Assembly (NCBI GenBank): GCA_913056365.1
Contig: CAJXLT010000001.1
Span: 310,001 to 374,000, forward strand
Direction of reading: 5' to 3'
From: an uncultured Paenibacillaceae bacterium
Lineage (GTDB): Bacteria; Bacillota; Bacilli; Paenibacillales; K13
DNA length: 64,000 nt
Shown: positions 8,106-54,006 of the stretch, piece after piece
Position numbering within the stretch: the first letter of the stretch is position 1
How the letters are laid out: each line of letters begins with the position of its first letter
Translations under genes and position numbers: made by a program
The notes under the pieces: model-generated
What the model was told of the DNA's origin: nothing
What the model saw: only the letters and a program-made list of their open reading frames with translations
The model's database searches: none

Positions 8106-8110
8106 CAGGG

Positions 8111-9790
8111 ATGCTTCGTTTATTGATTGCTGAGGATGAAGCGGTGTTTCTGGAAGGGCTTGTCGAAAGTGTGGATTGGGCTTCGATCGGCGTAGAGGTG
8201 TGCGGCACGGCGACCAACGGCGGAGATGCCTTGGCTCTTGCTGAGGAGCTGCAGCCGGACCTGCTGCTTACCGATATTCGTATGCCTCGCATGGACGGGC
8301 TTGAGCTGGTTGAAACGCTTGTCAAACACCAACAGAATGTGGCATGCATCTTGCTCACAGGTTATGGGGATTTCCATTATGCGCTCAAGGCGATGCGGCT
8401 CGGTGTATCCGACTATCTCGTGAAGCCTTGCCGGCCGGCTGAGCTGATCGCCGTCTTCCAGAAGGTAATCGAGAAGCTGCTGCAGAAGCGGGAAATGGAG
8501 GATGATTTGTCGGGCTTGCGGCGGCGCCTGCAGGAGAATGAGGAAGCGGCGAAGAGAAAGCATCTGCTGCAATGGTTGAAATCCCCCAAGTCCTCAGCCG
8601 GCCGGAAGGAGCTGATCGGGAAGTATCGGATGGTTATCGGCCAGGCGCCTTACTGGGCGGCGGCACTGCGTATTGACGCCAAATCGCTCCGCAGGCTGGA
8701 TTACGGTCAATCCGAGATGGATTTGCTGCGCTACGCAGCCGTGAATATCGCCTATGAGACGCTGCATGCGGAATACCCGCAGATCGAAATCACCTACGAT
8801 GACCGAGATTTGTTTGTCGTAAGCAGCGGCGCAGAATACTCGGTGCCCAAGCTGAGAAGAGCCCTGATCAGGCTGCAGCATAATTTGAACGGATTTCTGC
8901 GGCTGACTGTGAGCATCGGCGTAAGCGGCTCCTTCGCTTCCATGGACCAGTTGCACGATGCCTGTGAGCAATCGCTGGAAGCGCTGGAAACGAGCTTCTT
9001 CAAGGGCACAGGCCATATTTATTTCGTCAGCCAGGAAGGCAAGCCGGAGGAGGCAGATGCGGACTCCGAACACGGCGACAGCGCGAAGAAGAATGAAGCT
9101 ACCCTCGAGCATCTGGAGCAGCTGCTGATCGATTATATGAAGAACGGACTCCATGCCAATGCGCTAACGACCGTGGAGCAGTGGTTCGCGTATTTCCAGC
9201 GGGAATCCTCCGCATACTCGCACAAGGAAATCCGCTTGCATACCTTGTCCCTGCTAGCTCGTTTCATGCAGCTGTCGAAGGAGATGGACGTAAGAGATAG
9301 TCCATGGAAGAATCAGTTGGTAGAGCTCGCGGAGCGCGTGAATCATGCGGAAACCTTGGAGGAGCTGGACGGGCTGGTATCGCTTGCCCTGAAGCAGTGG
9401 GTGGAGGCGACGCGCTCCGAGCATGCGCCGAAGCGCAAGGTCGAGCAGGCGCTTGAGCTGATCTTCCAGCACTATAATTCGTCGGAATTGTCCCTGTCCT
9501 TCGTGGCTCAGTCGATCTTCGTCTCGCCTTCTTACCTGTCGACATTGTTCAAGCAGGAAACCGGAATGAACTTCCTGGATTACGTACACCAATACCGGAT
9601 TGAACGGGCCAAGCCGGTGCTGCTCAGCGGCCAGATGAAAATCTACCAGATCGCGAGGGAGATCGGTTATTTCGATGAAGCGCACTTCACCCGCACCTTC
9701 AAGAAGTGGACCGGCAAATCACCGTCGCAGTTTCAGAAGAACCCGCCGCTGGAAGAGGAAGCCTCATCCAAGCAGTCGAACGGCAATTAG
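8111..9790 (+). CDS. YesN-type response regulator (REC + AraC-type DNA-binding domain)
   Basis: The N-terminal receiver domain begins MLRLLIAEDEAVFLEGL, with the phospho-acceptor Asp in LLLTDIRMP (about residue 55) and the Lys of YLVKPC. A long middle region, partly helical, leads to a C-terminal AraC/XylS pair of helix-turn-helix motifs (SYLSTLFKQETGMNFLDYV and IAREIGYFDEAHFTRTFKKW). A GTG at 8102 overlaps the kinase stop, but the ATG at 8111 with GAGAGGTGA about 6 bases ahead is the better start (559 aa). Partner of the preceding kinase; expected to activate the divergent sugar importer. Family call firm, target inferred. Confidence 0.92.
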   Translation: MLRLLIAEDEAVFLEGLVESVDWASIGVEVCGTATNGGDALALAEELQPDLLLTDIRMPRMDGLELVETLVKHQQNVACILLTGYGDFHYALKAMRLGVSDYLVKPCRPAELIAVFQKVIEKLLQKREMEDDLSGLRRRLQENEEAAKRKHLLQWLKSPKSSAGRKELIGKYRMVIGQAPYWAAALRIDAKSLRRLDYGQSEMDLLRYAAVNIAYETLHAEYPQIEITYDDRDLFVVSSGAEYSVPKLRRALIRLQHNLNGFLRLTVSIGVSGSFASMDQLHDACEQSLEALETSFFKGTGHIYFVSQEGKPEEADADSEHGDSAKKNEATLEHLEQLLIDYMKNGLHANALTTVEQWFAYFQRESSAYSHKEIRLHTLSLLARFMQLSKEMDVRDSPWKNQLVELAERVNHAETLEELDGLVSLALKQWVEATRSEHAPKRKVEQALELIFQHYNSSELSLSFVAQSIFVSPSYLSTLFKQETGMNFLDYVHQYRIERAKPVLLSGQMKIYQIAREIGYFDEAHFTRTFKKWTGKSPSQFQKNPPLEEEASSKQSNGN

Positions 9791-10000: not shown

Positions 10001-10891
10001 ATGGATTCGCTGAAGCACTTGAACGCAGCACTGGCATACATGGAATCACGGCTTGTGGACGACATCGACATGGCCGAGGCAGCGCGGATAGCGCTCTGCT
10101 CGGAGTATCATCTCAGTAGGATGTTCTCGTTTCTAGCGGGCATACCGCTGTCCGAGTACATCCGGCGCAGAAGACTAACATGCGCTGCGGCAGACCTGCA
10201 GCACAGCGATGTGAAGGTGATCGACATCGCCCTGAAGTACGGCTATTCGTCGCCAGACGCATTCGCACGAGCGTTCCAGCAGTTGCACGGCGTGACGCCT
10301 TCCGAAGCAAGAAGGTCGGGCGCGATGCTGAAAGCTTATCCGCCGATGACCTTCCGATTGACGATACAAGGAGGAAGCGAGATGAACTATCGGATCGTGG
10401 ATAAGGAAGCGTTCCGCATTGTTGGTTACAGCAAGCGGGTGCCGATGGTGTTCGATGGTGTAAATACGGACATTGCGGCGATGTGGAATTCGCTGGACGA
10501 AGAGGAGTTCGCACGCTTGGAACAGCTGTCCAACATCGAGCCAGCAGGGCTCATAAGCGCGTCGGCAAGCATCACCGAGGAACGGAACGAGGACCAAGGC
10601 GAATTCGATTACTACATCGGCGCCGCAACGACGAATGCTTGCCCGGAACAGTTCGCTGTGCTGGAGGTACCGGCCTTGACGTGGGCATTGTTCGAGGTGG
10701 TCGGTTCATTCCCGGAGGCACTGCAATTGGTGTGGAGACGCATTTATTCCGAGTGGTTCCCTTCGTCCGGCTACGAGGTGGTGCCAGGACCGGAGATGCT
10801 ACGGAACTTGAGCAAGGATACAAGTTCGCCATCGTTCCGGAGCGAGATCTGGATTCCGGTTATGAAGCGATCCATCGGATCGGAGGCGTAA
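10001..10891 (+). CDS. AraC-family regulator with GyrI-like effector-binding domain
   Basis: 296 aa. An N-terminal AraC-type DNA-binding domain (residues about 8-108; two helix-turn-helix units including [29 protein letters not shown]) is followed by a GyrI-like small-molecule-binding domain (about 125-290, starting [20 protein letters not shown]). This order is that of Rob/BmrR-like regulators, which respond to amphipathic drugs or lipophilic ligands. A very strong GAGAGGAGG ribosome site precedes the ATG. The gene stands alone with its own terminator; no target is obvious, though it lies directly upstream of the NRPS operon. Confidence 0.9.
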
Positions 10892-10905
10892 TGGGAAGGG
10901 CAATG

Positions 10906-10937
10906 GAGGGCTGTTCTGAGGCAGCTCTCTTTTTTTT
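10906..10937 (+). terminator. rho-independent terminator
   Basis: GAGGGCTG at 10906-10913 pairs with CAGCTCTC at 10922-10929 (one G-U), loop of 8, then eight T residues. It ends the AraC-family gene and insulates the NRPS operon from upstream transcription. Confidence 0.85.
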
Positions 10938-11325
10938 ACTCATTCATTGCTGCTGATACATAGTTTCATATATTCACCCATATTGTGAACACGATTCGAC
11001 AATAAGATTTAATATTGTGTAAAAAGCTCCATTTATCCGACAAAGTTTTTGTAATAGTGAGACTATTATGTTAATATCGAAAATATCTTAATTAATAGAA
11101 ATCATATAACGATTGAGGTGTTGGCGGGATTTTTCTGCATGTTGATTCATGCGGAAATATACAAAAGCGGGGTCACGGAGTCGACTTCATAATGAGGCTA
11201 TAAGCAGATTTCATCACCATTTGAACAAGATCTAGTGACGGCATCAGCAGAAACAGCAACTATGAAATGGACTCCATGTGAAACATATTTCTAATCATTG
11301 ACGAAGGAGTGAGCTTAATAATCGA
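10938..11325 (+). promoter_or_regulatory. leader region of the NRPS/glycosyltransferase operon
   Basis: A 390-base AT-rich noncoding stretch that must contain the operon promoter. An imperfect 10-bp hairpin (TTTCTGCATG pairing with CATGCGGAAA, around 11132-11156) is visible. I see no Fur box and no clear promoter. The first gene has GAAGGAG at about 11302 with an unusually long 16-base gap to its ATG. Confidence 0.4.
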
Positions 11326-12705
11326 ATGGCAAATTTTATTCTGTGTACACATATGACTAGCGGGGATGTCCTGCCTTTCTTGCGGTTGGCATCGGCATTG
11401 CGCAAGCGGGGTCATCAGGCAACGCTTGTTACTCATGGCGCCTTTGCATCGATCGCAAGGAATGCTGGCGTTGCATTTCGGGCGATTGACAGCACGGAGG
11501 AATACGCTGTGCATATGAGTGACCTTCATATGCTGCAGGATCCACTGAATCGACAGGACTTGTTCGATGCGTATCAAGAGAAATATGTTACCGAGGAGAG
11601 ACTGCGCAAGGAATATGATCTGTTGGTCGAATTGTGTGAGAAGGAAGAGAATGTAATCGTTTGCAGGGAACGAGACAGCTATGCTGCGATGATGGTGTCA
11701 GAGTCGAAGCAGATCCCGATTGTGGCTGGTGTGTTGGCACCAAGCTATGTGACGCAATTGCAAATTTGGGATCAGGTGGACTTTGATTTCGGCTTGTCGC
11801 GAGTTAATGCAATACGTAAGAGTCTGGACTTGCAACCTGTTGCGAGCTGGACTTCTTGGACGGGCTCTGTGAAGAAGCTGATCGGATTCTGGCATGAGGC
11901 TTTCGATCGTGCAGTGGAAATGCCAAAAGGGGATATTCAAGCTGAGGCGGTTGGCTTTCCGTTGGCGGACGCAAGTGAATATGAGCAGCTTCCTACGGAT
12001 TTGCTAGCTTTCATCGAAGCAGGTGAACCGCCGCTGCTGATTACAGGCGGTACGAGCAAGATGATTAACCCGGCGTTCTACCGCGCTTCAATCGAAGCAT
12101 GCAAGCTTATGGGGAGAAGAACGATCTTGGTTACGCAGCATGAGGAGTTCGTCCATTGCGAGCTGCCTGATACGATTCGCTGGTACAAATCGCTTCCCTT
12201 GGCAAGCGTCTATCCGTTGGTTGCAGGCGTCATCCATCATGGCGGCATCGGGACTGCGACTGGTGCGATGGCGGCGGGTATTCCGCAGCTGGCGCTTGCA
12301 GCGGACAGCGATCGCCCGGACAACGGTATGCGTGTCAAAAATTTAGGGGTTGGTGATTTTCTGCCACCGATGCAGTGGCAGCCGGACACGATTGCGCAAG
12401 CAGTGGAACGGGTGATGTCCGCCTCTGTGAAGCATAACTGCCGAAGAATTGCTGAGATGTTGGAGCAGCATGACACGATGTCTGCTGCATGTGAGATTGT
12501 GGAGAGTGCGATCGGGGATCGATCGTGTGCGATCTCTTCAGAGCTGCTGCAGAGGGACTATATGGAAGCGGAACGAGCCAAACGAACTGAAGCCGAGAAG
12601 GATATTTCGAATCGGATGAAGCAAATTTCAGAAGACAAACAAGCTATGATTGCTCAAATATTGATGAAGCGCCAGTCCAGGATCAAGACAGGAGGGAACC
12701 GATGA
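11326..12705 (+). CDS. GT1-family glycosyltransferase (RhlB/sterol-glucosyltransferase type), copy 1
   Basis: 459 aa, GT-B fold. The N-terminal acceptor-binding half begins with the family signature THMTSGDVLPFLRLASALRK RGH-like pattern (residues 8-30), and the C-terminal half carries the nucleotide-sugar motif HHGGIGTATGAMAAGIPQ and DSDRPDNGMRVKNLGVGDFL. This pattern matches RhlB and UDP-glucose:sterol transferases, which move a hexose from an NDP-sugar to a lipophilic acceptor. After the catalytic domain there is a charged, helical tail of about 60 residues (ERAKRTEAEKDISNRMKQIS), perhaps an interaction segment. The stop overlaps the NRPS start by 4 bases, so the two are translationally coupled. 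A close paralogue ends the operon. Acceptor and sugar are unknown; glycosylation of the peptide product is inferred. Confidence 0.88.
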   Translation: MANFILCTHMTSGDVLPFLRLASALRKRGHQATLVTHGAFASIARNAGVAFRAIDSTEEYAVHMSDLHMLQDPLNRQDLFDAYQEKYVTEERLRKEYDLLVELCEKEENVIVCRERDSYAAMMVSESKQIPIVAGVLAPSYVTQLQIWDQVDFDFGLSRVNAIRKSLDLQPVASWTSWTGSVKKLIGFWHEAFDRAVEMPKGDIQAEAVGFPLADASEYEQLPTDLLAFIEAGEPPLLITGGTSKMINPAFYRASIEACKLMGRRTILVTQHEEFVHCELPDTIRWYKSLPLASVYPLVAGVIHHGGIGTATGAMAAGIPQLALAADSDRPDNGMRVKNLGVGDFLPPMQWQPDTIAQAVERVMSASVKHNCRRIAEMLEQHDTMSAACEIVESAIGDRSCAISSELLQRDYMEAERAKRTEAEKDISNRMKQISEDKQAMIAQILMKRQSRIKTGGNR

Positions 12706-15700
12706 ACAAGACGTTAGACCAGCTGGAAGCACTATCGCCAGAGAAGCGTGCGTTGCTGGCTCTGAAAGCGAAGAAGCAAAAGTTGAAGGCTGCTGCCCAA
12801 CAATCGGCGATGCGCAAGCAGCCGCGAGGTGAAGGAAGCCAGACATTCCCGTTGTCGACGGCACAGCAAAGTGTGATGTTCTACGAGGAATTCATGCCGA
12901 ACACGTATCGGTATCACTTCACGATTGCCTTCCGGCTGCTGGGCAAGCTGCGTATCGATGCCCTGCAGCGCGCCTTGAATGCGATTGTGGATCGCCATGA
13001 GGTGCTGCGCGCCTTGATCGCGTATGAGGATGATGATTATGTGCAGCACATTCAGCCTGAACGGAAGGTTGAGCTGGAGATCATCGAGCTGGACGATCCG
13101 AGTCGTCTGCATGAACAGATGTACGTAACCGCTCCTTATGACTTCAAGAACGGACCGTTGGTGCGGGCCAGGCTGGTGAAGGTATCGCCAGAGGAGCACG
13201 CGCTGGTCTGGATGACGCATCATCTTATGTTTGACGGTGAATCGATTAATATTTTCGTCGAGGAGATGTCTGCCTACTATCGGTCCTATGTACAGAATGT
13301 GCCGGTCCATCTGCCGGAACTGTCTGTCCAGTATCCAGATTATGCGGTATGGCAACGGCAGTGGATGAACAGTGATTCCTATGCGAAGCAGATGGACTTC
13401 TGGCTGGACAAGCTGCGCAGTCCGCTGCCGAAGCTGGATCTCCCGACTGATTATCCGCGTTCGACTTCCCGTACAGGGAACGAGAAGCAAGTGGCTTGTA
13501 TGATGGTGGAGCCTTCTGTCAGCGCACGACTGAAGGAGACGAGTAAGCAGCTTGGCTGCACGTTTTATTCGCTTATGCTTGCGGTATACAAATTAATGCT
13601 CAGCAGCTATAGTGGCCAGCAGGAAGTGTTGGTTGGCACGCCAATGGCTAATCGTCGGATGCAAGAGGTGGAGCGGCTGATCGGTTTCTTCGCGAATACG
13701 GTTGTGATTCGATCGCGTGTTGATTTGCAATCGCGATTTCGCGATTTCGCCGCTCAGGTTTGGGACAACGTGCTAGAGGCGAACGATCATCAGGATATTC
13801 CGTTCGACCGAATTGTAGAAGCGCTCAATCCAGAGCGAAGCAATGGACACGCTGTTCTATTCGATACGATGTTCCTGTACGAGCCGCCCAAGCAACCGGG
13901 TGTCGCATTGCCGGGGCTGAAGCTCGAAGCTTTCCCAGCTGGCAAGATCAGAGGCGGGGAGCTGGATCTGACGCTAACCGTCTTCGAACAGCAGGATGGC
14001 AGTATGGAGCTGGCGATGACATACAGCAGCGATCTGTTCAAGGAAGCAACGGTCAATCGGCTGGTGCATCATTACCGGACTATGCTGGAGCGGGTAGCTG
14101 ATAATGCGGACGGGTTCCTCTATGAAGTTGCAGCCGTACCGCAGGAGCAGTTCGAAGTGATGACAGGTTGGAACCGGATGAACGACGATACTCCGTCTGT
14201 TGAACTGCCGCATCTGCTTCTGGAACGGCAGGCTGCGCTTACCCCGGATAGCGCTGCCGTATGCTCGGAGGGCAAGCAGCTCAGCTATCGGGAGCTGAAT
14301 CAGCGCGCGAATTCGCTGGCTCACTATCTTCGCAGCCGCGGGGTTGGTCCTAACCAGACGGTAGGGCTATACATGGAACGAACGACGGATATTATGGTCG
14401 GTCTGCTCGGCATCTTGAAGGCAGGCGGTGTGTATGTGCCGCTCGATGCCAAGCTGCCTGGTGAGCGCATCCGAACGGTGATGGAGGAAGCAGACGTATC
14501 CGTACTAGTGACAGAGACTCTTCTGCGGAGCCAGGTTCCTGCTAGTGTGTCGGAGCAACAGGAAGTGATCGTCATGGATCGGGATTGGCCGCTGATTGCG
14601 CTGGAGGGTACGGACAATCCGGAGGTACTGTCGCGTCCTACCGATCTAATGTATTTGCTGTTCACATCGGGGTCAACGGGCAAGCCGAAAGGTGTGGCGG
14701 TCGAGCATCGCAACTATGCCAATTACTTGCAGGGAATTATGGATCGGATGCAATTGGAGCCTGGATTGCATTATGCGATTGTTAGCACGCTTGCGGCAGA
14801 TTTGGGAACACCGATGATTTGGGGGGCCTTTGCCACTGGCGGTACGCTGCATGTGATTCCTTATGAGAGAGCTGCTGATCCGGATGCCTTCGCTGATTAT
14901 TGCAGAGAGCATCCGATAGATGTGATGAAGATCGTGCCGAGTCATTTTGAAGCACTGATGAGTACAACGGAACCGGCTGTCATTATTCCGCGGCGTTGTC
15001 TGGCATTCGCAGGGGAAGCCTCTCATTGGGGAACGGTTCAGGAAGTGCGGCGGCTGCGGCCGGATTGTGAAATCCAGAACCACTACGGTCCAACCGAGAC
15101 AACGGTGTCCGTACTGGCTTATCCCGTACCGAATGAGGATGACGTAGAGCAGCAAGCTACGCTGCCGCTTGGGTACCCGATACCGAACGCTCCGGTATAT
15201 GTATTGAACGCGTGCATGCAGCCTGTGCCAATCGGGGCGGCGGGCGAGCTGTATATAGGCGGACGTGCGGTCACGCGGGGATATTTCGGCCGAACCGACC
15301 TGACAGCTGAGCGCTTCTTGCCGGATCCGTTCGCATCGGAGCCTGGCAGCCGCATGTACCGGACCGGCGACCTGGTTCGTTATCGTCCTGATGGTACACT
15401 GCAATTCATCGGGCGCACCGACTACCAAGTGAAAATTCGTGGCTACCGGATAGAGACAGGTGAGATTGAGCATTCACTGCTCGGCTTGGACGGCATTCGT
15501 GATGCTGTCGTCATTGCCAGAGAGGATGAACCGGGCGATAAGCGGCTGGTCGCTTACCTGGTGCCGGATTTGTCCGGCAATGCTGTGCCGCAGGAGCAGG
15601 AGGAGCAGAAGCTGCAGTTGGATGTAAGCGTCATCCGTCACTATTTGAAAGACCGGCTGCCGGATTATATGATTCCTTCCGCATTCGTGGAATTGGAGAA

Positions 15701-18236
15701 GCTGCCGTTGAATGCGAATGGCAAGCTGGATCGCGCCGCGCTGCCGAAGCCGGAGATGAATCAAGCAGCAGGCGATGATCTAGTCGCGCCGCGCACGAAG
15801 CTGGAGCAGGACATAGCAGATGTCTGGTGTGAAGTGATCGGCATGAAGCAGGTTGGCATTGATCAGGAGTTTTTCGATCTTGGGGGAGATTCGTTCAAAG
15901 CGATTAAGGTCGTGCGCAAGATGGGGAATACGTTCAGTGTCATGGATTTGTTCCAATACCCGACGATCCGCCAGCTGGCTGAGCACTTAACCTCAGGCGC
16001 TGCGAAGAGTGATGATATTCTCATTCCTTTCAAGAAGTCTTCTGCTATTAGCGGTCCTGTCAAGACGATGGTTTGTGTGCCATACGGAGGCGGCAGTGCG
16101 ATTACGTTCCAGCCGCTGGCCAGAGAGCTGCCGGACAACTTCAACTTGTTGGCTGTCGAGCTTCCTGGACATGACTTCAGCAGACCGGATCAGCCGTTGG
16201 CATCCTTAGATGCAGTAGCGGCCAGATGCGCGGAGGAAATTAAAGAAAAAGCTGAGGGCGACCTCTACTTGTACGGACATTGTCTAGGCGGTGCCATGAT
16301 TTTGCGTATCGGCATGCTGCTTGAACAAGCGAATGTGCAGGTGAAGGGTGTGTTCATGGCAGGGACGTTCCCTACTGCGCGGCTTCCATTCCGGATTATG
16401 GAATGGTGGCATAAGCTGTTCCCGCGTGAGAAGTGGACTTCTGACAAGTTCGCCCGCGATATGCTTCGGGCGTTCGGCGGATTCGATGATGAGGTTTCGC
16501 CGGAAGAAGAGAAGTTCATTCTGCGCAATATGCGCCACGATGCGAGAGAGGCAGAGGATTTCTATACAGCGCTGTACAGGATGGAGGAGCGGCCGAAGCT
16601 GCAGGCGCCGATTGCTTGTATCGTTGGGGAAGCGGACCGGATGACGGAGTTCTATGAAGAACGCCATCTGGAATGGAAGGACTTCTGTGAAGAGGTCAAC
16701 CTCCATGTTGTTGATAATGCAGGGCATTACTTCCACAAGCACCAAACGGATTATTTGTCGAGGATCTTATCGAACCAAATTGACGCTTGGGAGAATGGGG
16801 AGGTTGTTGAAGAGGTCGCGGCGACGAGTGAGACAGCTATCCATGCAGACATCCCGCCGATTTCTTCCTTAGATGAGCTTAAGGTGAAGCCTAGTGTCAA
16901 AGCGTTCCTGATGGTGACGATGTGTCTCATTATTGCGACAATTGGAACTTCCATAACTGGCTTCGCACTCGGAATATGGGTGTTCCAGCAAACCGGGTCC
17001 ATTTCAAACTATGCAACGATATCCCTGTTTGCCATTATTCCGACGATACTGCTGCTGCCTGTAGCGGGAGCGGTAGTCGATCGCTATGACCGCAGAAAGG
17101 TGATGCTCGCAGGTCAATGTCTGGCATTGATATCCGTATTGTTCCTTGCGACACTGTTGTACTTCGACGCGTTGACGATATGGGCGATTTATGTGGGTGC
17201 CTGTATGGGTTCTATCGCAGGTGCATTTATTAATCCGGCTTACCTGGCTGCTACTGCCCAGCTTGTTCCTAAGCGCTATCTGGGCAACGCGAACGGTCTA
17301 GGTCAGATGGTCTTCTCGATCAACGGCATTATGGCTCCGGCATTGGGCGGTGCGCTTATCGTCATGATCGGCGTGAAGCGGATGATTCTAATCGACATCG
17401 TTACGTTAATCATATCGATCCTTATTTTGTCCCTCATCCGGTTCCCGAATTTGATGTTCCGCAAGCAGGAAGAACCGATGATTAAGGAAATTATAGGCGG
17501 CTGGAAATATATTATAAACCGCAAAAGCATGGTGGCGATGGTCGTCTTCTTCGTTGTTGCGAACTTCTTCATGAGTCTGTACAACGTCCTGACTACCCCG
17601 TACCTGCTGCAATTTCTTAACCCGGAGCATGTCGGGCTTGTCGTGGGCATAGAAGGAGCAGGCCTCTTGATCGGTTCGATCATCATGTCGATCTGGGGCG
17701 GCTTCGACAGACGTACTGATGGCATGGTAGGCGCGGTCATCCTGACTGGCTTGTCCATTGTGATGGCTGGTATTTATCCTTCGCTTGTGACGGCAGTTAT
17801 TGGACTATTCGGATTCGGCTTGGCACTCGCCATCATTAATACACATTGGCTGGCGATTATTCAGACGAAGGTCGGACTTGAGCTGCAGGGACGGGTGGTG
17901 GCGACTAACCAGGTGATGGTGTTCAGTATGCGGCCGCTTAGCTTCCTGGTTGCCGGACCGCTGGTAGCTGTTGTATTCACGCCGTTGTTTGCAAGCATGC
18001 CGGATGCATTCTTGCCGTTCGGAATGTTCGGCAATGGCAGTGAATCGGGTATTGCCATGCTGCTCGTGACGATAGGTGCAATTTTAGTCTTATGGGGGGT
18101 GCTCGGTTTGAGGTATCGTCCACTGCGTGACATGGAGAACATTATGCCGGATGCGATACCGGATTCCATCATTATTAAGGACAAGGACAAGCTGCAGCAG
18201 CTGGCAGACAGCAAGATTGGTGCGAGTAAGTTATAA
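12702..18236 (+). CDS. NRPS (C-A-T-TE) fused to an MFS exporter
   Basis: 1844 aa. Domains in order: short helical N-terminus; condensation domain (about 48-480) with HHLMFDG near residue 172; adenylation domain (about 505-1010) with [12 protein letters not shown] near 653 and NHYGPTETT; thiolation domain with LGGDS, the carrier Ser near 1064; thioesterase (about 1110-1340) whose nucleophile motif is GHCLGG, with Cys near 1194 in place of the usual Ser, and a plausible Asp (GEADRMT) and His (AGHYFHKH); then about 440 residues of a 12-helix MFS transporter from about 1395, with the loop DRYDRRKV. In the A domain the usual FDxSVW segment is replaced by [10 protein letters not shown]. The reading frame is continuous, so the exporter is a true fusion. 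It would extend an aminoacyl group from a partner A-T protein, release the product and export it. The substrate cannot be assigned with confidence. Confidence 0.92.
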
Positions 18237-18262
18237 ATTATGAATCCAAGGAGGACAACGAT

Positions 18263-18442
18263 ATGGAAGAGCAACGTACGTATGTAGTTGTAGTGAACCA
18301 TGAAGAGCAGTATGCCTTGTGGCCGGAAGAGTTGGCCATACCAGCAGGCTGGCAGGATGCAGGTAAGCATGGTACCAAAGAGGAATGTCTGGCTTATGTG
18401 CAAGAAGTGTGGACAGACCTTAGACCGCTTAGCTTGCGGTAA
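18263..18442 (+). CDS. MbtH-like protein
   Basis: 59 aa starting with ATG behind CAAGGAGGA. The sequence contains all family marks: [17 protein letters not shown], and the ending [19 protein letters not shown] split around three conserved Trp. MbtH proteins bind NRPS adenylation domains and help them fold and activate amino acids. It lies between the two NRPS genes of the operon, 26 bases after the first and 50 before the second, so it probably serves one or both A domains. The gene is shorter than usual ORF cut-offs and easily missed. Confidence 0.95.
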
Positions 18443-18492
18443 TAGAGTAGCGGACACTAGTATTTCCAATACGAATGGAGGAGTGATTATAC

Positions 18493-20358
18493 ATGAACAC
18501 GAGACACGCATTCATTCATCACCAATTCGAGGAGCAGGTCCGACAGACGCCGGATCGCACCGCGGTTGTGTTCGAAGGGCATTCTCTTACTTATGAAGAA
18601 CTGAATCAGCGAGCTAACCGATTGGCACATCATCTATGCCAGCTTGGCGTAGGGCACGATGTGCGAGTAGGAATCTGTATGGAACGCTCATTCGAGATGG
18701 TTACAGCGATTTTCGCTGTATTGAAGGCCGGCGGTGCGTATGTGCCGCTAGATCCAGACTATCCGAAGGACAGACTGGAGCACTTGCTGACGGACAGTCA
18801 GGCAAGCGTCGTGCTGACACAGCAGCAACTGGCGCAACAATTTACTTCCTATTCCGGCACACTGCTGGCAGTAGACGAAGCGGGTGCACTGCCTGTCAGC
18901 AGTCAAGATACGAACGCGAATTTGGACATTCCTATGCATGAACAGCATCTGGCTTACGTGTACTATACATCCGGCTCTACCGGGAAGCCCAAGGGAGTCA
19001 TGGTTGCCCACAGCGCGATCCGAAGCAGGCTTGCATGGCTGCAGGAGACGTTCCAGATCGGCGAAGCAGACAGAGTGTTGCAGAAATCACCGTACAGCTT
19101 TGACGTTGCGGTATGGGAATTTCTCTCGCTCATATATGGAGCGTGCCTGGTCGTAGCCAAGCCGAAAGGCCATCTGGACAATGCATATTTGTGGAGCCTG
19201 CTCGATCGGGAACAGATTACAATTGTGCAGTTCGTGCCTACGATGCTGCAGACTTTCCTTGCTGAGCAGGCTGTGGAATTGCCGCATCTGAGACATGTCA
19301 TTGTGGCTGGCGAGGCGTTGACGGCTTCGCTGCATGCACGTTTTTGCCGGATGATGTCTGCCCAGCTGCACAATTTGTACGGGCCGACGGAGACAACGAT
19401 CTTCGCGACAGGATGGACGAGCGATCTGGATACATCGCGTAATGAAGTGCCGATTGGCAAAGCTCTCTCGGGCGGCGATGTGTACATTCTGAATGAACGA
19501 TATGAGAAGGTTGCGCCAGGCGAGGTCGGGGAGTTGTATATTAGCGGAGCCGGACTTGCCCGCGGTTACCTCAATCGGCCGGATCTGACTGCGGAGCGGT
19601 TCGTCCCAGACCCGTTCAGCAGCGAGCCGGGTGCGCGTATGTATGAGACGGGCGATCTTGCTCGCTGGCTGCCAGATAAGTCAGTGGAATGCCTGGGTCG
19701 CAACGATGATCAGGTCAAGCTGCGGGGCTATCGCATTGAGCTCGGAGAAATCAGTACGATGTTAGAAGAGCACCCGAACGTGCGGCAGGCGGTCGTCATC
19801 GTACGGGAAGACCATCCGGGCGACCAACGGTTGGCTGCCTATTATATGCCCGATGCAACAAGCGCGCCTTCAGTCAGTGAGCTGCGAGCGTACCTCCAAG
19901 ATCGACTGCCGGAATATATGGTCCCTTCCTACTTGGTAGAGATGGAGCAGTTCCCGCTTACGCCAAGCGGCAAGACGGACCGCAAAGCGCTGCCAAGCCC
20001 CGTGCTGTCGAGAGATATGATTAGCGGCGGCTACACGGCTCCAGAATCCTATATCCAGGAGGAGCTCTGCAACATATGGTCGGCATTCTTCAATCTGGAT
20101 CGAATCGGCATCGATGATGATTTCATAGACTTGGGCGGACATTCCCTCGTTGCCACACAGATTCTTGTACGCATCCAGCAAACATTGGACGTGAAGGTAT
20201 CGTTGAAGGATATGCTGACGAAGGGCAAGACTATACGTGCGTTGGCGGAGCTAGTAGAGGAAAGCTTGCTTGCCGACACAGACGAGCAGGAGCTGGAGCA
20301 GCTAATGCGCGAGATGGAACAGATGTCAGAGGATGAGCTTGCTGCACTGATGAAGTAG
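18493..20358 (+). CDS. stand-alone NRPS A-T protein (loading module)
   Basis: 621 aa: adenylation domain (about 8-510) with [11 protein letters not shown] near residue 157, SPYSFDVAVWEF, NLYGPTETTIFAT and GKTDRKAL, then a thiolation domain with LGGHS (carrier Ser near 551) and an acidic C-terminal tail. No condensation domain, so it should load the first amino acid and hand it to the condensation domain of the C-A-T-TE-MFS protein. Specificity residues read by eye are about D-V-W-Q-I-A-L-I-F-K, which match no common code I can name safely. GGAGGAG precedes the ATG. Assembly order is thus opposite to gene order. Confidence 0.92.
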   Translation: MNTRHAFIHHQFEEQVRQTPDRTAVVFEGHSLTYEELNQRANRLAHHLCQLGVGHDVRVGICMERSFEMVTAIFAVLKAGGAYVPLDPDYPKDRLEHLLTDSQASVVLTQQQLAQQFTSYSGTLLAVDEAGALPVSSQDTNANLDIPMHEQHLAYVYYTSGSTGKPKGVMVAHSAIRSRLAWLQETFQIGEADRVLQKSPYSFDVAVWEFLSLIYGACLVVAKPKGHLDNAYLWSLLDREQITIVQFVPTMLQTFLAEQAVELPHLRHVIVAGEALTASLHARFCRMMSAQLHNLYGPTETTIFATGWTSDLDTSRNEVPIGKALSGGDVYILNERYEKVAPGEVGELYISGAGLARGYLNRPDLTAERFVPDPFSSEPGARMYETGDLARWLPDKSVECLGRNDDQVKLRGYRIELGEISTMLEEHPNVRQAVVIVREDHPGDQRLAAYYMPDATSAPSVSELRAYLQDRLPEYMVPSYLVEMEQFPLTPSGKTDRKALPSPVLSRDMISGGYTAPESYIQEELCNIWSAFFNLDRIGIDDDFIDLGGHSLVATQILVRIQQTLDVKVSLKDMLTKGKTIRALAELVEESLLADTDEQELEQLMREMEQMSEDELAALMK

Positions 20359-20372
20359 ACAGGAGGGGAAGC

Positions 20373-21743
20373 ATGGCAAACTTTGTACTAAGTACACATA
20401 TGACCAACGGGGATGTGCTGCCTTTCCTGCGGATTGCTTCTGCTCTTGTCAAGCGCGGTCATCAAGCTACACTGGTCACACATGGCGTGTTCGAGCCGAT
20501 GGCCGCGAAGGCTGGCATTGGATTCGTCGCTCTGGATGAACCGGAGGAATATGCAGGCATCATGAAGGACTTGGAAATGTGGAAAGACCCTGATATGCAC
20601 CAAACGTATGAGAATAAGTACTATTCGATCGATAAGTTTATGAAAGAATATACGATACTCAAGGAGCTATGCAGCCGAGAAGATTCTGTGCTTATATGTA
20701 AGGAACGGGACAGCTACGTGGCGATGATGGTTTCCGAAGCGCTGCATGTTCCGATCGTCACAGTGGTGCTTGCGCCAAGCTATGCGACACAGCTGCAGGT
20801 TTGGAAGCAGATGGAGGCTGATATTACAGCGATTGACCGGATTAATGACTTCCGCAAGAGGATCGGGCTGCCGCCTATATCCGGCTTAGCTGGATGGATG
20901 GGGACGGTGAAGAAGCATATAGGCTTCTGGCATGAGTCATTCGATGCTGCCCTAGACCTTCCGGACTGGGCCATCCCGATCGAAACCGTCGGCTTCCCGT
21001 TGGCGGATTCCGCAGAGTATGAGACGCTGCCGGAGGACTTGACTACATTCATTCAGGAAAGGGAACCGCCGCTGCTCATAACCGGAGGAACGGGCAAGAT
21101 GATCAAGCCGGAGTTTTACTGGTCGGCCATCGAAGCTTGCAAATGGATGAAACGAAGGACGATTCTCGTAACGCGCCATGAAGAGTTCGTCCATTGCGAA
21201 CTGCCGGACTATATCCGTTGGTACAAGATTCTGCCGCTAGCTGGTGTCTATCCGCTGGTCAGTGGCGTCATCAACCATGGCGGTATCGGCACAGTATCGG
21301 CGGCAATGTTCGCGGGGACACCACAGCTGATCTTGGGGGCGGATACGGACCGACCGGATAATGGGCTGCGCGTGAAGAACATGGGTGTAGGTGATTACTT
21401 ACCGCCATTGTACTGGCAGCCGCAGCTGGTCGCTGAGAGAGTGGAAGGTATACTCACTTCACAGACGAAAGCAAGATGTGTTCGTCTGGCAGAGCAGTTA
21501 AGCCGTCACGACACGATGAAGACAGCTTGCGAGGAGATCGAGACGCTAATCGATCAACCGGCGTATGCGATTTCGTCTGAGACGATTCGGGCTGATTATG
21601 AGCAAGCCGAACGAATGCGGGACCATACTGCTGCACAAGTCAAGGCTAGCACTGAGGAACGGGATGAGCAGTTATATGATGAGAAGCGAGCTGCTCTGAA
21701 GAAGCTGCTGCTGAAGCGTAAGCTAGATAAGGGGTCCGTATAA
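20373..21743 (+). CDS. GT1-family glycosyltransferase (RhlB type), copy 2
   Basis: 456 aa, closely similar along its full length to the first gene of this operon: THMTNGDVLPFLRIASALVK at the start, MIKPEFYWSAIEACKWM, and the donor motif NHGGIGTVSAAMFAGTPQ with DTDRPDNGLRVKNMGVGDYL. The charged helical tail is also kept. One visible difference is NHGG here against HHGG in copy 1, next to the usual catalytic or donor-binding His. AGGAGGGG precedes the ATG 14 bases after the A-T gene. The two enzymes may add two sugars in turn or act on two positions; alternatively one is a specialised duplicate. Last gene of the operon. Confidence 0.88.
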   Translation: MANFVLSTHMTNGDVLPFLRIASALVKRGHQATLVTHGVFEPMAAKAGIGFVALDEPEEYAGIMKDLEMWKDPDMHQTYENKYYSIDKFMKEYTILKELCSREDSVLICKERDSYVAMMVSEALHVPIVTVVLAPSYATQLQVWKQMEADITAIDRINDFRKRIGLPPISGLAGWMGTVKKHIGFWHESFDAALDLPDWAIPIETVGFPLADSAEYETLPEDLTTFIQEREPPLLITGGTGKMIKPEFYWSAIEACKWMKRRTILVTRHEEFVHCELPDYIRWYKILPLAGVYPLVSGVINHGGIGTVSAAMFAGTPQLILGADTDRPDNGLRVKNMGVGDYLPPLYWQPQLVAERVEGILTSQTKARCVRLAEQLSRHDTMKTACEEIETLIDQPAYAISSETIRADYEQAERMRDHTAAQVKASTEERDEQLYDEKRAALKKLLLKRKLDKGSV

Positions 21744-21882: not shown

Positions 21883-21911
21883 TTGCCAAACAAGCAAACA
21901 CATTGTATAAT
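21883..21911 (+). promoter_or_regulatory. sigma-A promoter of iron transporter operon
   Basis: TTGCCA (21883-21888), a 17-base spacer, and a perfect TATAAT (21906-21911). Transcription would start near 21918, at the edge of the Fur box. Confidence 0.75.
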
Positions 21912-21918
21912 AGCAATC

Positions 21919-21937
21919 GATAATGATTCTCATAATC
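21919..21937. promoter_or_regulatory. Fur box
   Basis: GATAATGATTCTCATAATC matches the 19-base Fur consensus at 16 positions. It covers the predicted transcription start, so iron-loaded Fur would block the promoter. This directly supports an iron role for the following transporter. Confidence 0.85.
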
Positions 21938-21969
21938 AGAAAAATAAAAGAGATAGGTTGGGGGAGCAT

Positions 21970-23103
21970 ATGGTGAGCAAGTCGAGGAAGGTTTGGATGC
22001 TTGGTCTAGTTTTTATTCTAGTTTTGTTAACAGCATGCGGTTCCGCTGGTTCTAATGATAACCAGGCTAACGGTAGCAATACGTCTGCTGAAGGGCAGCA
22101 AGAACAGAATGATTCCAACACGAATGAACCTGTAAGTGAAGAAGAATTGACGAGTGAAGTGAATATTTATACCGCACGGCATTATGATGTAGATGCAGAA
22201 TTGTATGCACAGTTTACAGAAGAAACTGGTATACAGGTGAATGTCATTGAAGGCAAAGCGCCAGAATTGATTGAACGACTGAAGCGAGAAGGAGAAAGCT
22301 CTCCTGCAGATCTGTTCATTACAGTGGATGGCGGTATTCTACATACTGCCAAAGCGGAGGGAGTCTTACAGCCTGTAGTATCTGATGTTGTAGACGCGCA
22401 GGTGCCTGCAGAGCTTAGGGACACAGATTCTCATTGGATCGGGCTGTCCACAAGAGCGCGTGTCATCGCATATGCCAAGGATCGCGTCAATCCAGAGGAG
22501 CTGTCGACCTATGAGGATTTGGCTTCGGATAAGTGGAAGGGCCGCTTGCTAGTGCGTTCCTCCTCGAATCTGTACAATCAGTCACTCATGGCTTCTTTGA
22601 TCGCACTCAACGGTGAAGAGGCAACAGAGCAGTGGGCAGCCGGTATCGCGGCCAATCTGGCGCGTGATCCGGAAGGCGGAGACCGTGACCAAGCGAAGGC
22701 GATCGTTGCCGGTGTTGGTGATGTAGCCATTATGAACACGTATTATGTTGGTCATATGTCAGTGTCCGATGATGCAGAAGAAGTGAAGGTTGCCGAGCAG
22801 ATTGGTGTCTTCTTCCCGAACCAGGATTCGACAGGCACGCATGTGAATATTTCCGGAGCAGGGTTAACGAAGCATGCACCGAACAAGGCAGCGGCAGTGA
22901 AGCTTATTGAGTACCTGACAGCTAAGGAAGCGCAAGAGAAGTTCTCCAGTGTGAACTTCGAGTATCCTGTGAACCCGGATGCAGAATGGCCAGAGCTTCT
23001 GCAGAGCTGGGGCACCTTCAACAAGCAATCAGTTGACTTCGCAGCATATAGCGAGTACAATCCTAAAACAGTTGAAATCTCGAACAAAGTGGGTTGGAAG
23101 TAA
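21970..23103 (+). CDS. ferric iron ABC transporter substrate-binding lipoprotein (FutA/AfuA type)
   Basis: 377 aa from the ATG at 21970; a GTG one codon later is equally placed behind GGGGGAG. Upstream in-frame codons overlap the promoter and Fur box and are not translated. Lipobox LLTAC, Cys 23, then an acidic Asn-rich linker. The mature protein starts EVNIYTARHYDVDAELYAQF, the typical opening of periplasmic Fe(III)-binding proteins, and has the iron-binding Tyr pair in MNTYYVGHM near residue 260. It captures ferric iron outside the cell and delivers it to the permease encoded next. Fur-regulated. Confidence 0.92.
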   Translation: MVSKSRKVWMLGLVFILVLLTACGSAGSNDNQANGSNTSAEGQQEQNDSNTNEPVSEEELTSEVNIYTARHYDVDAELYAQFTEETGIQVNVIEGKAPELIERLKREGESSPADLFITVDGGILHTAKAEGVLQPVVSDVVDAQVPAELRDTDSHWIGLSTRARVIAYAKDRVNPEELSTYEDLASDKWKGRLLVRSSSNLYNQSLMASLIALNGEEATEQWAAGIAANLARDPEGGDRDQAKAIVAGVGDVAIMNTYYVGHMSVSDDAEEVKVAEQIGVFFPNQDSTGTHVNISGAGLTKHAPNKAAAVKLIEYLTAKEAQEKFSSVNFEYPVNPDAEWPELLQSWGTFNKQSVDFAAYSEYNPKTVEISNKVGWK

Positions 23104-23105
23104 AC

Positions 23106-24758
23106 ATGCACTTGGCGGCGATAACTAGAAACTTCAAGAGACATATGAACGGATGGTTAGCCGTCAGTATGCTAGGGGCAGCAGGAATTCTGCTGCCCAT
23201 TCTCTATGTCTTGCTTAGCTTATTTACGAAGCCGAATGATAATTGGGAGCAAGTCAAGCAATATTTATTACTGGACTATATTCAAGGCACGCTGATGGTG
23301 GCAGGAATGACCGCAGTGCTGGCAGCTATACTTGGTGTAGGACTAGCTTGGTTAGTTACAGCCTATCGATTTCCATTCAGAGGGTTCTTTCGCTGGGCAT
23401 TAATTCTGCCATTGGCAATGCCGCCCTATATCGCTGCCTATACTTATAAAACCATGACAAGCTATACCGGTATTATCCAAGCAACACTACGCAATCATCT
23501 CGGGATTACGGTTCCTCCCGGAATGATTGAAGTGATGTCGATGCGAGGGGCTGTCTTTATACTAACCCTCTGTTTATTTCCTTACGTATTTCTTATTACG
23601 AGGACGTTCCTAGAACGGCAGAGCTCCGCTTATATTGACAATGCAAGACTCCTTGGTCGCAAGGGAATTGGGCTGTTCTTCCAAGTTGTTGTCCCGATCG
23701 CTAGACCTGCAATCATTGCAGGTGTGATGCTAGTGATCTTCGAAGCAATTAGCGATTATGGAGTCGTGAGCTACTTCGGCGTGCAGACCGTATCTACCGC
23801 GATTTTTCAAATTTGGTTCGGGATGTATGACGTAGATTCTGCACTGCGGCTAGCAGCCTGGCTGATGATTATAGTAATTGGCATCTTCCTGATTGAACGA
23901 TGGCTAAGGCGCAATCGGCAATTTCACAGTCTGACCCAACAAGCCAAGCCACTCGTTCCACGGTCTCTCAGCCGTTGGAAAGCTGTGTTCGCTTGTACAG
24001 TATGCTCGCTTGTCTTGTTGTTATCCTTCATTGTGCCTGTCGCGCAGATTGCTGTATGGAGTGTGTGGACCTCCCACAAGGTATGGGATTCGAACTTCGT
24101 GGAGCTGACACTGAACACGATGAAGGGTGCCTTGCTCGCTACCTTGATTATTATCATATTCGCAACCGTTGCCGCCAGGGTGTGCCGCTATGCTTCTAAT
24201 TCCTTCTCTTACGGGATGTCCCGTGTGATGACAGCGGGCTATGCGACTCCGGGTGCTGTGATAGCTGTTGGCGTTCTTGCTGTCTTCATCTCATTGGATA
24301 ACAGTCTCTCTTCCTTCTACGGATGGATGGGGCAAGGGGAAGGGGCGCTCATTCTGAGCTTGTCTCTCGGCATGCTGATTACCGGGTACGTCATTCGGTT
24401 CATGGCTACAGGCTATAACGCTATGGAAGCAGGTTATGAGAAGCTGTCGAAGTCGTACACAGAGGCAGCGCGAACGCTTGGGAGGGGTCATTTCGCCGCT
24501 TTCTTCAAGATAGAGCTACCCCTTATTCGCGGGGCTTTGTTCTCAGGCTTTGTCTTGGCCTTTGTCGAAATCATCAAGGAGCTACCACTAACGCTGCTGC
24601 TAAGACCCTTCAACTTCAATACACTTGCAACTAGAGCCTACACATACGCAATTGACGAACGAATCTACGAGGCTGCGCTGCCTTCCCTGCTATTAATTAT
24701 GCTCAGCCTGGTCTCGGTACTGACTATTCATCTTATCGGAAAGAGGGATACGCAATGA
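23106..24758 (+). CDS. ferric iron ABC transporter permease (FbpB/FutB type)
   Basis: 550 aa with two tandem permease halves, about 12 membrane segments. Each half carries an EAA-like loop: IDNARLLGRKGIGLFFQVVV in the first and YTEAARTLGRGHFAAFFKIE in the second. The ATG at 23106 follows the binding-protein stop by 2 bases; a TTG at 23094 would overlap that gene. The stop overlaps the start of the ATPase. A single double-length permease is the rule in Fe(III) importers of this class. Confidence 0.92.
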   Translation: MHLAAITRNFKRHMNGWLAVSMLGAAGILLPILYVLLSLFTKPNDNWEQVKQYLLLDYIQGTLMVAGMTAVLAAILGVGLAWLVTAYRFPFRGFFRWALILPLAMPPYIAAYTYKTMTSYTGIIQATLRNHLGITVPPGMIEVMSMRGAVFILTLCLFPYVFLITRTFLERQSSAYIDNARLLGRKGIGLFFQVVVPIARPAIIAGVMLVIFEAISDYGVVSYFGVQTVSTAIFQIWFGMYDVDSALRLAAWLMIIVIGIFLIERWLRRNRQFHSLTQQAKPLVPRSLSRWKAVFACTVCSLVLLLSFIVPVAQIAVWSVWTSHKVWDSNFVELTLNTMKGALLATLIIIIFATVAARVCRYASNSFSYGMSRVMTAGYATPGAVIAVGVLAVFISLDNSLSSFYGWMGQGEGALILSLSLGMLITGYVIRFMATGYNAMEAGYEKLSKSYTEAARTLGRGHFAAFFKIELPLIRGALFSGFVLAFVEIIKELPLTLLLRPFNFNTLATRAYTYAIDERIYEAALPSLLLIMLSLVSVLTIHLIGKRDTQ

Positions 24759-25408
24759 ATGATGTCATCATGAAAGATCTAACCTATCGATACAGCGCCA
24801 AGGAAGCACCGGTTATCGATGATTATTCTCTAACGATTAAGCAAGGGGAAGTGGTTGGAATCGTTGGAGCGAGCGGTAGTGGCAAGAGCACCCTGCTCAG
24901 ACTCATTGCGGGACTTGAGATGCCGGAGCAGGGAAGTATCACGATTGACAATCGTGTAGTAGTGGATAGCCATACGTTCATTCACGCGGAAGATAGAGGT
25001 GTGGGACTCGTATTCCAGGATTATGCGTTGTTTCCGCACCTGACCGTAGCGCAGAACATCGTGTTCGGTCTGAATCAGCTGAAGAGAGCGGAACGGAGAG
25101 AACGCTTGGTCGAGATGCTGGACTTGGTCCAGCTAGGGGGTTACGCGAAGCGATATCCACACGAGCTGAGCGGCGGCCAACAGCAGCGTGTTGCACTCGC
25201 TAGAGCGCTTGCGCCCAAGCCGTCCATCCTGCTTATGGATGAACCCTTCAGCAATCTAGATGCAGATCTGAAGGCTGGCATTCGCCAAGAGCTGCAGGAT
25301 ATTCTGCATAAGGCTCAGATTACGTGCTTGCTCGTCTCCCACGACCAGCAGGATATAGAGGCAATCTGCAGCAGAGCCGTGAATATGAATACTCCGGTTA
25401 TGGTGTGA
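24755..25408 (+). CDS. ferric iron ABC transporter ATPase, C-terminally short
   Basis: 217 aa. All nucleotide-binding motifs are present: Walker A GASGSGKST, Q-loop VFQDYALF, signature LSGGQQQRVALARALAPKP, Walker B ILLMDEPFSNLDA and H-loop SHDQQ. It stops right after ICSRAVNMNTPVMV, whereas FbpC-type ATPases run on for about 130 more residues of regulatory C-terminal domain. Only a 51-codon open stretch of unclear origin follows (25424-25588), so the regulatory domain seems lost. A bare ATPase core can still drive transport, so the protein may be active without the usual C-terminal feedback domain. Confidence 0.85.
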   Translation: MNDVIMKDLTYRYSAKEAPVIDDYSLTIKQGEVVGIVGASGSGKSTLLRLIAGLEMPEQGSITIDNRVVVDSHTFIHAEDRGVGLVFQDYALFPHLTVAQNIVFGLNQLKRAERRERLVEMLDLVQLGGYAKRYPHELSGGQQQRVALARALAPKPSILLMDEPFSNLDADLKAGIRQELQDILHKAQITCLLVSHDQQDIEAICSRAVNMNTPVMV

Positions 25409-53909: not shown

Positions 53910-54006
53910 AGGAGTAGATCATAGCATTACTATACGTCACATTGACATTTCCTTGACACATTATAAGCTTATAATAATGGGAAGTGATCAATGGGAGGAC
54001 GTTATT

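Follow-up and report, generated by a model that had tools for sequence, protein, structure and literature searches.

Can the thioesterase (TE) of a non-ribosomal peptide synthetase (NRPS) hand its product to a pump that forms part of the same polypeptide? The question is raised by a locus of an uncultured Paenibacillaceae bacterium (assembly GCA_913056365.1, contig CAJXLT010000001.1), found in a 64,000-nucleotide stretch that was analysed as a whole and is called the window here (G000:C1:310001-374000 in our numbering; genome size 4.65 Mb). Five genes at 11326-21743 of the window lie on the same strand. They encode a glycosyltransferase (GT) named GTa, a synthetase in which condensation (C), adenylation (A), carrier (T) and TE domains run into a major facilitator superfamily (MFS) domain, an MbtH-like protein, a stand-alone A-T loader and a second glycosyltransferase, GTb. 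We propose, with a probability of roughly 0.6, that these genes specify a small assembly line tethered to the membrane, whose product is of dipeptide size, glycosylated and exported.

According to this model, the loader, together with the MbtH-like protein, would activate the first residue and hold it as a thioester. A glycosyltransferase of family 1 (GT1) would dock through its C-terminal helix and glycosylate the intermediate while it is carrier-bound or just after its release, and the C domain would couple the first residue to a second one activated by the terminal A domain. The cysteine TE would then take the product from the carrier domain T1 and release it as an acid or a ring and, being covalently tied to the 12-helix MFS part, would deliver it next to the pump. 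The sequences and models show the gene order, the domains with intact motifs, the fusion and its conservation, the invariant Cys, Asp and His and, as a statistical signal for GTb but not for GTa, the tail motif; when glycosylation occurs, docking, the direction of transport, the transfer from TE to pump and which residues and sugars are used are inferred.

The thioesterase and its fused transporter domain

The open reading frame (ORF) positions and tight gene order given in a preliminary description of the operon were confirmed: the GTa and synthetase genes overlap by 4 bases, and the genes that follow are separated by 26, 50 and 14 bases. In the 1844-residue synthetase, Pfam identifies all five domain types on one protein (C 47-485, A 507-862 and 921-1008, T 1037-1096, TE 1122-1346, MFS_1 1407-1743), and the loader carries AMP-binding, AMP-binding_C and T. 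By eye the core motifs are intact, including HHxxxDG of the C domain, both carrier serines and the A-domain motifs. The system thus has the make-up of a dimodular type I NRPS, and this domain content supports the earlier proposal of a dipeptide-sized core accompanied by two glycosyltransferases. The operon had also been called complete in itself; synthetase, release, glycosyltransferase and exporter-type parts are indeed all present, but no phosphopantetheinyl transferase (PPTase) gene lies inside it, and this activity would be supplied from elsewhere in the genome, where three PF01648-family genes score above the cut-off. Fifteen C-domain matches above the cut-off indicate that the genome holds further NRPS genes.

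The claim that a 12-helix MFS protein is fused in frame to the TE was borne out by the single ORF, Pfam, an AlphaFold2 model and hydropathy. The model of residues 1130-1844, made from a 38-sequence alignment (mean pLDDT 86.3, pTM 0.83), consists of an alpha/beta-hydrolase part, a disordered linker and membrane helices. Twelve transmembrane helices were counted in the MFS part from the model and a hydropathy scan, a long helix (model residues 395-449) being counted as two. No solved MFS protein matched this part by sequence at E up to 1, and one could suppose that the domain is a membrane anchor or an importer and not a product exporter. We consider this highly improbable: Foldseek places the MFS part closest to the MdfA and VMAT antiporters, a motif-A-like loop can be recognised by eye, residues invariant among the 38 sequences are spread throughout the domain, and unfused homologues stand directly after NRPS genes in both records examined. 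On the model, the MFS part would have the drug/proton-antiporter fold and be of exporter type, with export of the product as its probable function.

The proposed catalytic triad of the TE (Cys1194, Asp1312, His1342) is invariant in all 38 aligned sequences. Within the GXCXG nucleophile motif the Cys is found in 38/38, the first Gly in 36/38 and the second in 37/38; the residue before the Cys is His in 35 sequences and Gln in three, and the one after it is Val, Leu, Ala or Met. Asp183 of the model is invariant in the 38 sequences, and no Asp occurs at positions 91-94 after the earlier strand; the catalytic Asp is placed on the later strand and not at the EntF position, the strands having been equated by eye. 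Among solved TEs, the best sequence match is that of the obafluorin synthetase ObiF1 (PDB 6n8e; 105 bits versus 48 for the next), which is also the first-ranked Foldseek match of the TE-MFS model, through the TE part, and which shares with the window protein an A-T-TE run and a Cys TE.

These likenesses allow a more specific reading, in which the TE closes a strained ring (a beta-lactone or another small ring) and the product is a reactive warhead like obafluorin or sulfazecin, from which glycosylation and coupled export protect the producer. According to two reports, the TEs of ObiF and SulM likewise have a Cys nucleophile and a late Asp as in type II TEs (PMC6668435, PMC11298585), and their products are below 370 Da (PMC11298585), which also fits a dipeptide-sized product. 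The authors of the latter report use a Gln-Cys-Asn motif as the mark of beta-lactam-forming TEs (PMC11298585), and this SulM-type motif is absent from the window protein, which reads His-Cys-Leu. The five-gene operon contains no beta-hydroxylase or transaldolase gene. Moreover, the ObiF product derives from a beta-hydroxy residue, whereas the terminal A code of the window, DLPKAAHVS, is not Ser/Thr-like, and some relatives have a Gly-like terminal code from which no four-membered ring could be closed through a side chain. Judged from these sequences, the ObiF-like features of the TE would not establish ring closure, and we regard this reading as unlikely, though not far-fetched. ObiF1 works with an MbtH-like protein, as the window synthetase probably does, but in ObiF this is a domain of the synthetase (PMC6668435), unlike the separate gene of the window. 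To our knowledge, ObiF has no MFS part.

Spread of the fusion and its cassette

The assembly-line reading gains weight from relatives. A total of 392 genomes from the order of the window were scanned, two candidates per genome being scored, so that the counts are lower bounds; a match covering both TE and MFS was found in at least 12 (G000, G075, G081, G154, G160, G184, G248, G291, G296, G359, G377 and G378), and G003, the only genus mate among the 392, gave just a 29% MFS match. At least 80% of the TE-MFS query was covered in five plasmid records, two from Embleya and three from Streptomyces clavuligerus. A contig scan with the window protein alone as query found no relatives; a scan of species-level genomes with a 19-sequence alignment returned 339 pattern matches, 306 of which encode a relative. 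Locus counts out of 80 refer to the best 80 of these 306 related stretches, to which a few genomes contribute two loci. The 80 come from several phyla: Paenibacillus, Brevibacillus, Clostridia, Streptomyces, Kitasatospora, Micromonospora, Nonomuraea, Amycolatopsis, Vibrio, Dyella and Rhodanobacter, as well as Anaerolineae, metagenome-assembled genomes (MAGs) of SAR324 and Spirochaetes, and others.

A sequencing error that joined two separate genes near 16860 had been named as a possible source of the fusion. This explanation is excluded, since the frame is open through the joint and a single ORF spans A, TE and MFS at 78 of the 80 loci; in the two exceptions, L092 and L104, the ORFs are broken up in the assemblies. 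Plasmids of Trichormus and Nostoc encode a separate homologous MFS protein (39% and 35% identical), whose gene starts 14 bases or 1 base after an NRPS gene (L172 15001-16305; L173 14986-16299). From sequence, we take these to be unfused counterparts that go with a different TE, and their position directly after a TE-ending NRPS gene supports export of the product. Among the titles and abstract openings listed in searches of the open-access literature, no bacterial NRPS-MFS fusion appeared, although one may still have been published; within these listings, the TE-MFS proteins form a broad, undescribed family.

That the layout of the operon is a one-off was not supported: related fusions recur in other genomes, and so does the cassette. 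Glycosyltransferases, whose presence was judged by BLAST with four queries, were found in 17 of the 80 loci, and the order loader / GT / C-A-T-TE-MFS in 16 of these 17 (L104 in broken pieces), the loader being A-T in 15 and FkbH-T in one (L077). By best query the enzyme is a GT1 in nine loci (L054-L059, L105, L109, L113) and a GT4 in eight (L069, L070, L072, L077, L081, L084, L086, L104), families being named by Pfam on the window enzymes and four GT4 examples. The occurrence of two families in one slot argues for selection for glycosyltransferase activity there. Tandem glycosyltransferases, comparable to the two of the window, occur in L059, L105 and L109. The arrangement of the window, with the loader after the synthetase and a glycosyltransferase at each end, is absent from the 80 loci and from L036-L053, so that the window shows a variant of the recurring cassette peculiar to itself.

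The closest clusters are those of Paenibacillus algorifonticola, luteus, oryzae and paridis (L054, L055, L056, L113), which share A-T, GT1, C-A-T-TE-MFS and MbtH with the window and whose TE-MFS parts are 68-71% identical to its own. They differ in having the order A-T / GT / NRPS / MbtH and a single glycosyltransferase, where the window has two and its A-T follows the synthetase, and in three of the four a PPTase-like gene follows, unlike in the window. A Paenibacillaceae cassette (L069, L070, L072, L081, L084, L086) and an Anaerolineales MAG (L104, genes broken) have A-T / GT / C-A-T-TE-MFS with a closely similar terminal code, but their glycosyltransferase is a GT4 and their loader code is DAST[IV]AAVC, which we take to denote Tyr.

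Sugar-related genes beside some relatives (L048, L059, L105) count in favour of a glycosylated product. An FkbH-T protein replaces the A-T loader, together with a GT4, in L048 (2099-14049) and similarly in L051 and L077; the FkbH domain was identified on L048 (279 bits), with which L077 shares 90% identity across that domain. In L048 the synthetase gene is followed by genes for a galactokinase-like GHMP kinase and a nucleotidyltransferase. By analogy, this variant suggests a glyceryl-type starter and a dedicated sugar nucleotide. Polysaccharide deacetylase genes occur in two clusters with tandem glycosyltransferases (L059 12216-12947; L105 2074-2868), which suggests an N-acetylated sugar that is subsequently deacetylated; in L105, two GT pieces, the deacetylase gene and a PPTase-like gene stand ahead of a longer synthetase.

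A-domain codes were read by alignment to a typed segment of gramicidin synthetase. Counting the window, 76 of the 81 loci submitted gave a readable terminal code; DLTKIAHVS occurs in 29 of the 76, and 46 follow the pattern DLxKxA[HNY]V[SA]. A terminal code was obtained for 16 of the 17 GT-bearing loci in the set of 80 (all but L059), and all 16 fit DLxKIA[HN]VS, while L053, a further GT locus outside the 80, has the divergent code DLTKVSGVT. The window-type code is presumably nearest to Asp/Asn, an assignment in which we place low trust, and the remaining terminal codes we take to be Gly-, Ser-, Cys- or Gln-like. A literature search on the code strings returned no match. Loader codes are more varied: DAST[IV]AAVC accompanies GT4 in seven loci, and with GT1 the codes are DILQ..W-like in L057, L058 and L059, DISQVGLIY in L109, DVWQFCLVF in L054, L055, L056 and L113, and DVWQIALIF in the window. 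Judged by these codes, the terminal residue looks constant in the GT-bearing group while loader and glycosyltransferase vary.

The glycosyltransferases and their tails

Both window enzymes match Glyco_transf_28 and EryCIII-like_C in Pfam, and they group together in a tree with moderate support (78/76). The best Foldseek matches of GTa are the sterol glucosyltransferase UGT51, GtfA/B/D and CalG1, at 18-22% identity; with these proteins the window enzymes share the GT-B fold, the HHGGxGT donor motif (NHGGIGT in GTb) and the Asp of the GDVxP motif, and they differ from them in having extra C-terminal helices and, in GTb, an NRPS-like motif. NCBIfam models of macrolide- and rifamycin-inactivating glycosyltransferases and of OleI also match, all far below their cut-offs, and would fit a role in self-resistance, in which the enzymes inactivate the product inside the cell as macrolide-inactivating glycosyltransferases do. 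We hold this very unlikely, given that 16 of the 80 loci place the glycosyltransferase gene between those for loader and synthetase, that two families are used and that many tails are NRPS-like. In addition, no reactivating glycosidase was found among the immediate neighbours scanned, which were not every gene of the window, and the one glycosidase in the window is a GH43 protein with carbohydrate-binding modules (58567-60834), 37 kb away.

The tails bear on how the glycosyltransferases might be recruited to the assembly line. In the GTa model the tail is helical and lies apart from the GT-B fold, in a part modelled with lower confidence. An LSxEKRALLxxLxxR-like stretch ends many glycosyltransferases of both families and also begins the synthetases of the same loci. 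A position-specific scoring matrix (PSSM), devised after the tails had been seen, was trained on 16 of 19 synthetase N-termini, leaving out L105 and L109, which do not have the motif, and L113, a copy of L055, and the locus of each glycosyltransferase was left out when its tail was scored; related loci are not independent. Of the 22 tails scored (24 pieces minus the broken ones of L104 and L109), 14 exceeded the 99th percentile of shuffles, against none of 24 control glycosyltransferases (27 loci of the window's genome minus the two window enzymes and one duplicate). By family, 7/8 GT4 tails passed and 7/14 GT1 tails, with GTb among those that passed and GTa among those that did not. Sharing of this sequence would fit a common docking partner, for which the acidic end of the loader is a candidate; alternatively, it may be a duplicated segment without function. 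Elsewhere in the genome, a separate NRPS region (G000:C1:1066100-1077970) has an EryCIII-like glycosyltransferase (L165) between C-domain matches, and the tail of this enzyme fails the motif test.

Several observations weigh against a glycosylating, exporting assembly line. The four BLAST queries detected no glycosyltransferase in 63 of the 80 loci, which shows that the fusion does not require glycosylation to go with it; the absences are partly uninformative because many loci have short upstream sequence (more than 3 kb before the synthetase in 49/80, 3 kb or less in 31/80). Some relatives have a Gly-like loader code, which would provide no side-chain hydroxyl. The GTa tail scores 1.8, a value matched by 61/500 shuffles and hence not significant, and only half of the GT1 tails pass. 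Among the C-starting proteins of GT-less loci, only 6/46 have the N-terminal motif (start codons uncertain), which indicates that it is not general to such proteins. Furthermore, the NRPS preceding the unfused cyanobacterial MFS ends in a Ser-type TE. Finally, no product of these systems was found described, and the statement of the preliminary description that this layout has no characterised product stands.

Neighbouring genes and features of the window

Directly downstream of the operon, genes for an iron-type ABC transporter (substrate-binding protein, permease, ATPase) occupy 21883-25405. A Fur-box-like site, GATAATGATTCTCATAATC, lies at 21919-21937 with two mismatches to the Fur consensus, where none is expected by chance; since it falls inside the listed ORF of the first transporter gene, that gene probably starts further downstream than the TTG. 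Site and transporter together could point to a small siderophore system, which we nevertheless rate the least probable of the readings considered here. No other Fur-like site with up to three mismatches occurs in the window, so none precedes the operon at 11326 and Fur control of its synthesis genes is not supported. Relatives of the binding protein and permease occur in 0/80 TE-MFS loci, placing the pair outside the cassette. An AraC/GyrI-like regulator gene lies upstream at 10001-10891; its relatives are found in 0/80 loci, with one weak, short match (L039) among the other 18, and on these counts neither the transporter genes nor the regulator belong to the cassette.

The regulator gene is followed by a terminator-like stem (10905-10930), a weak signal as such stems are fewer than in shuffles. 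Further upstream, 6261-9790 encodes a sensor kinase (Cache, HAMP, His_kinase) paired with an AraC-type response regulator. The interval 10900-11330 contains no inverted repeat of 12 or more, and no Rfam element matched the window at gathering scores. At 53953-55896, a single ORF combines domains of three kinds: cNMP-binding, sigma-54 activator (parts of it) and patatin-like phospholipase.

Table 1. Positions of the operon's genes, domains and motifs in the window
Feature	Position	Strand	Basis or remark
Glycosyltransferase GTa (GT1), 459 aa	11326..12705	+	Pfam PF03033/PF06722; AlphaFold2 model, GT-B fold
GTa C-terminal helix SEDKQAMIAQILMKRQSRI	12631..12687	+	helix 436-454 in model; likeness to NRPS N-terminal motif by eye, not significant
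NRPS C-A-T-TE-MFS, 1844 aa, one ORF	12702..18236	+	Pfam
Synthetase N-terminal stretch, proposed docking helix	12732..12776	+	motif comparison
Condensation domain, HHLMFDG motif by eye	12840..14156	+	PF00668, E 1e-97
Adenylation domain, code DLPKAAHVS	14220..15725	+	PF00501/PF13193; code by alignment
Carrier domain T1 (LGGDSF)	15810..15989	+	PF00550
Thioesterase, proposed triad Cys1194 (16281-16283), Asp1312 (16635-16637), His1342 (16725-16727)	16065..16796	+	PF00975 (1122-1346), rest from model
Disordered TE-MFS linker	about 16812..16877	+	pLDDT <50 at model residues 242-263
MFS exporter-type domain, 12 transmembrane helices and C-terminal tail	16896..18236	+	PF07690 above cut-off, TIGR00900 below cut-off; model, hydropathy
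MbtH-like protein, 59 aa, sole match in genome	18263..18442	+	PF03621
Stand-alone loader A-T, code DVWQIALIF, acidic C-terminus MSEDELAALMK	18493..20358	+	Pfam
Glycosyltransferase GTb (GT1), 456 aa, 57% identical to GTa	20373..21743	+	Pfam
GTb C-terminal motif DEQLYDEKRAALKKLL	21663..21710	+	strong match to NRPS N-terminal motif; PSSM 18.1, reached by 0/500 shuffles

The most far-reaching form of the proposal describes widespread, hitherto undescribed membrane-embedded peptide factories, in which a Cys TE passes a small, possibly ring-closed product to its tethered exporter, and glycosyltransferases of two families, recruited by borrowed NRPS docking helices, act while the intermediate is on the carrier; as a whole we find this quite unlikely. 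If the proposal holds, such clusters could be picked out cleanly by their TE-MFS signature, the dimodular version would be small enough for expression and testing, and engineering would profit from a glycosyltransferase whose NRPS docking helix can be transplanted. Synthesis, tailoring and export would then be physically coupled in one protein and its docked partners, in bacteria of several phyla.

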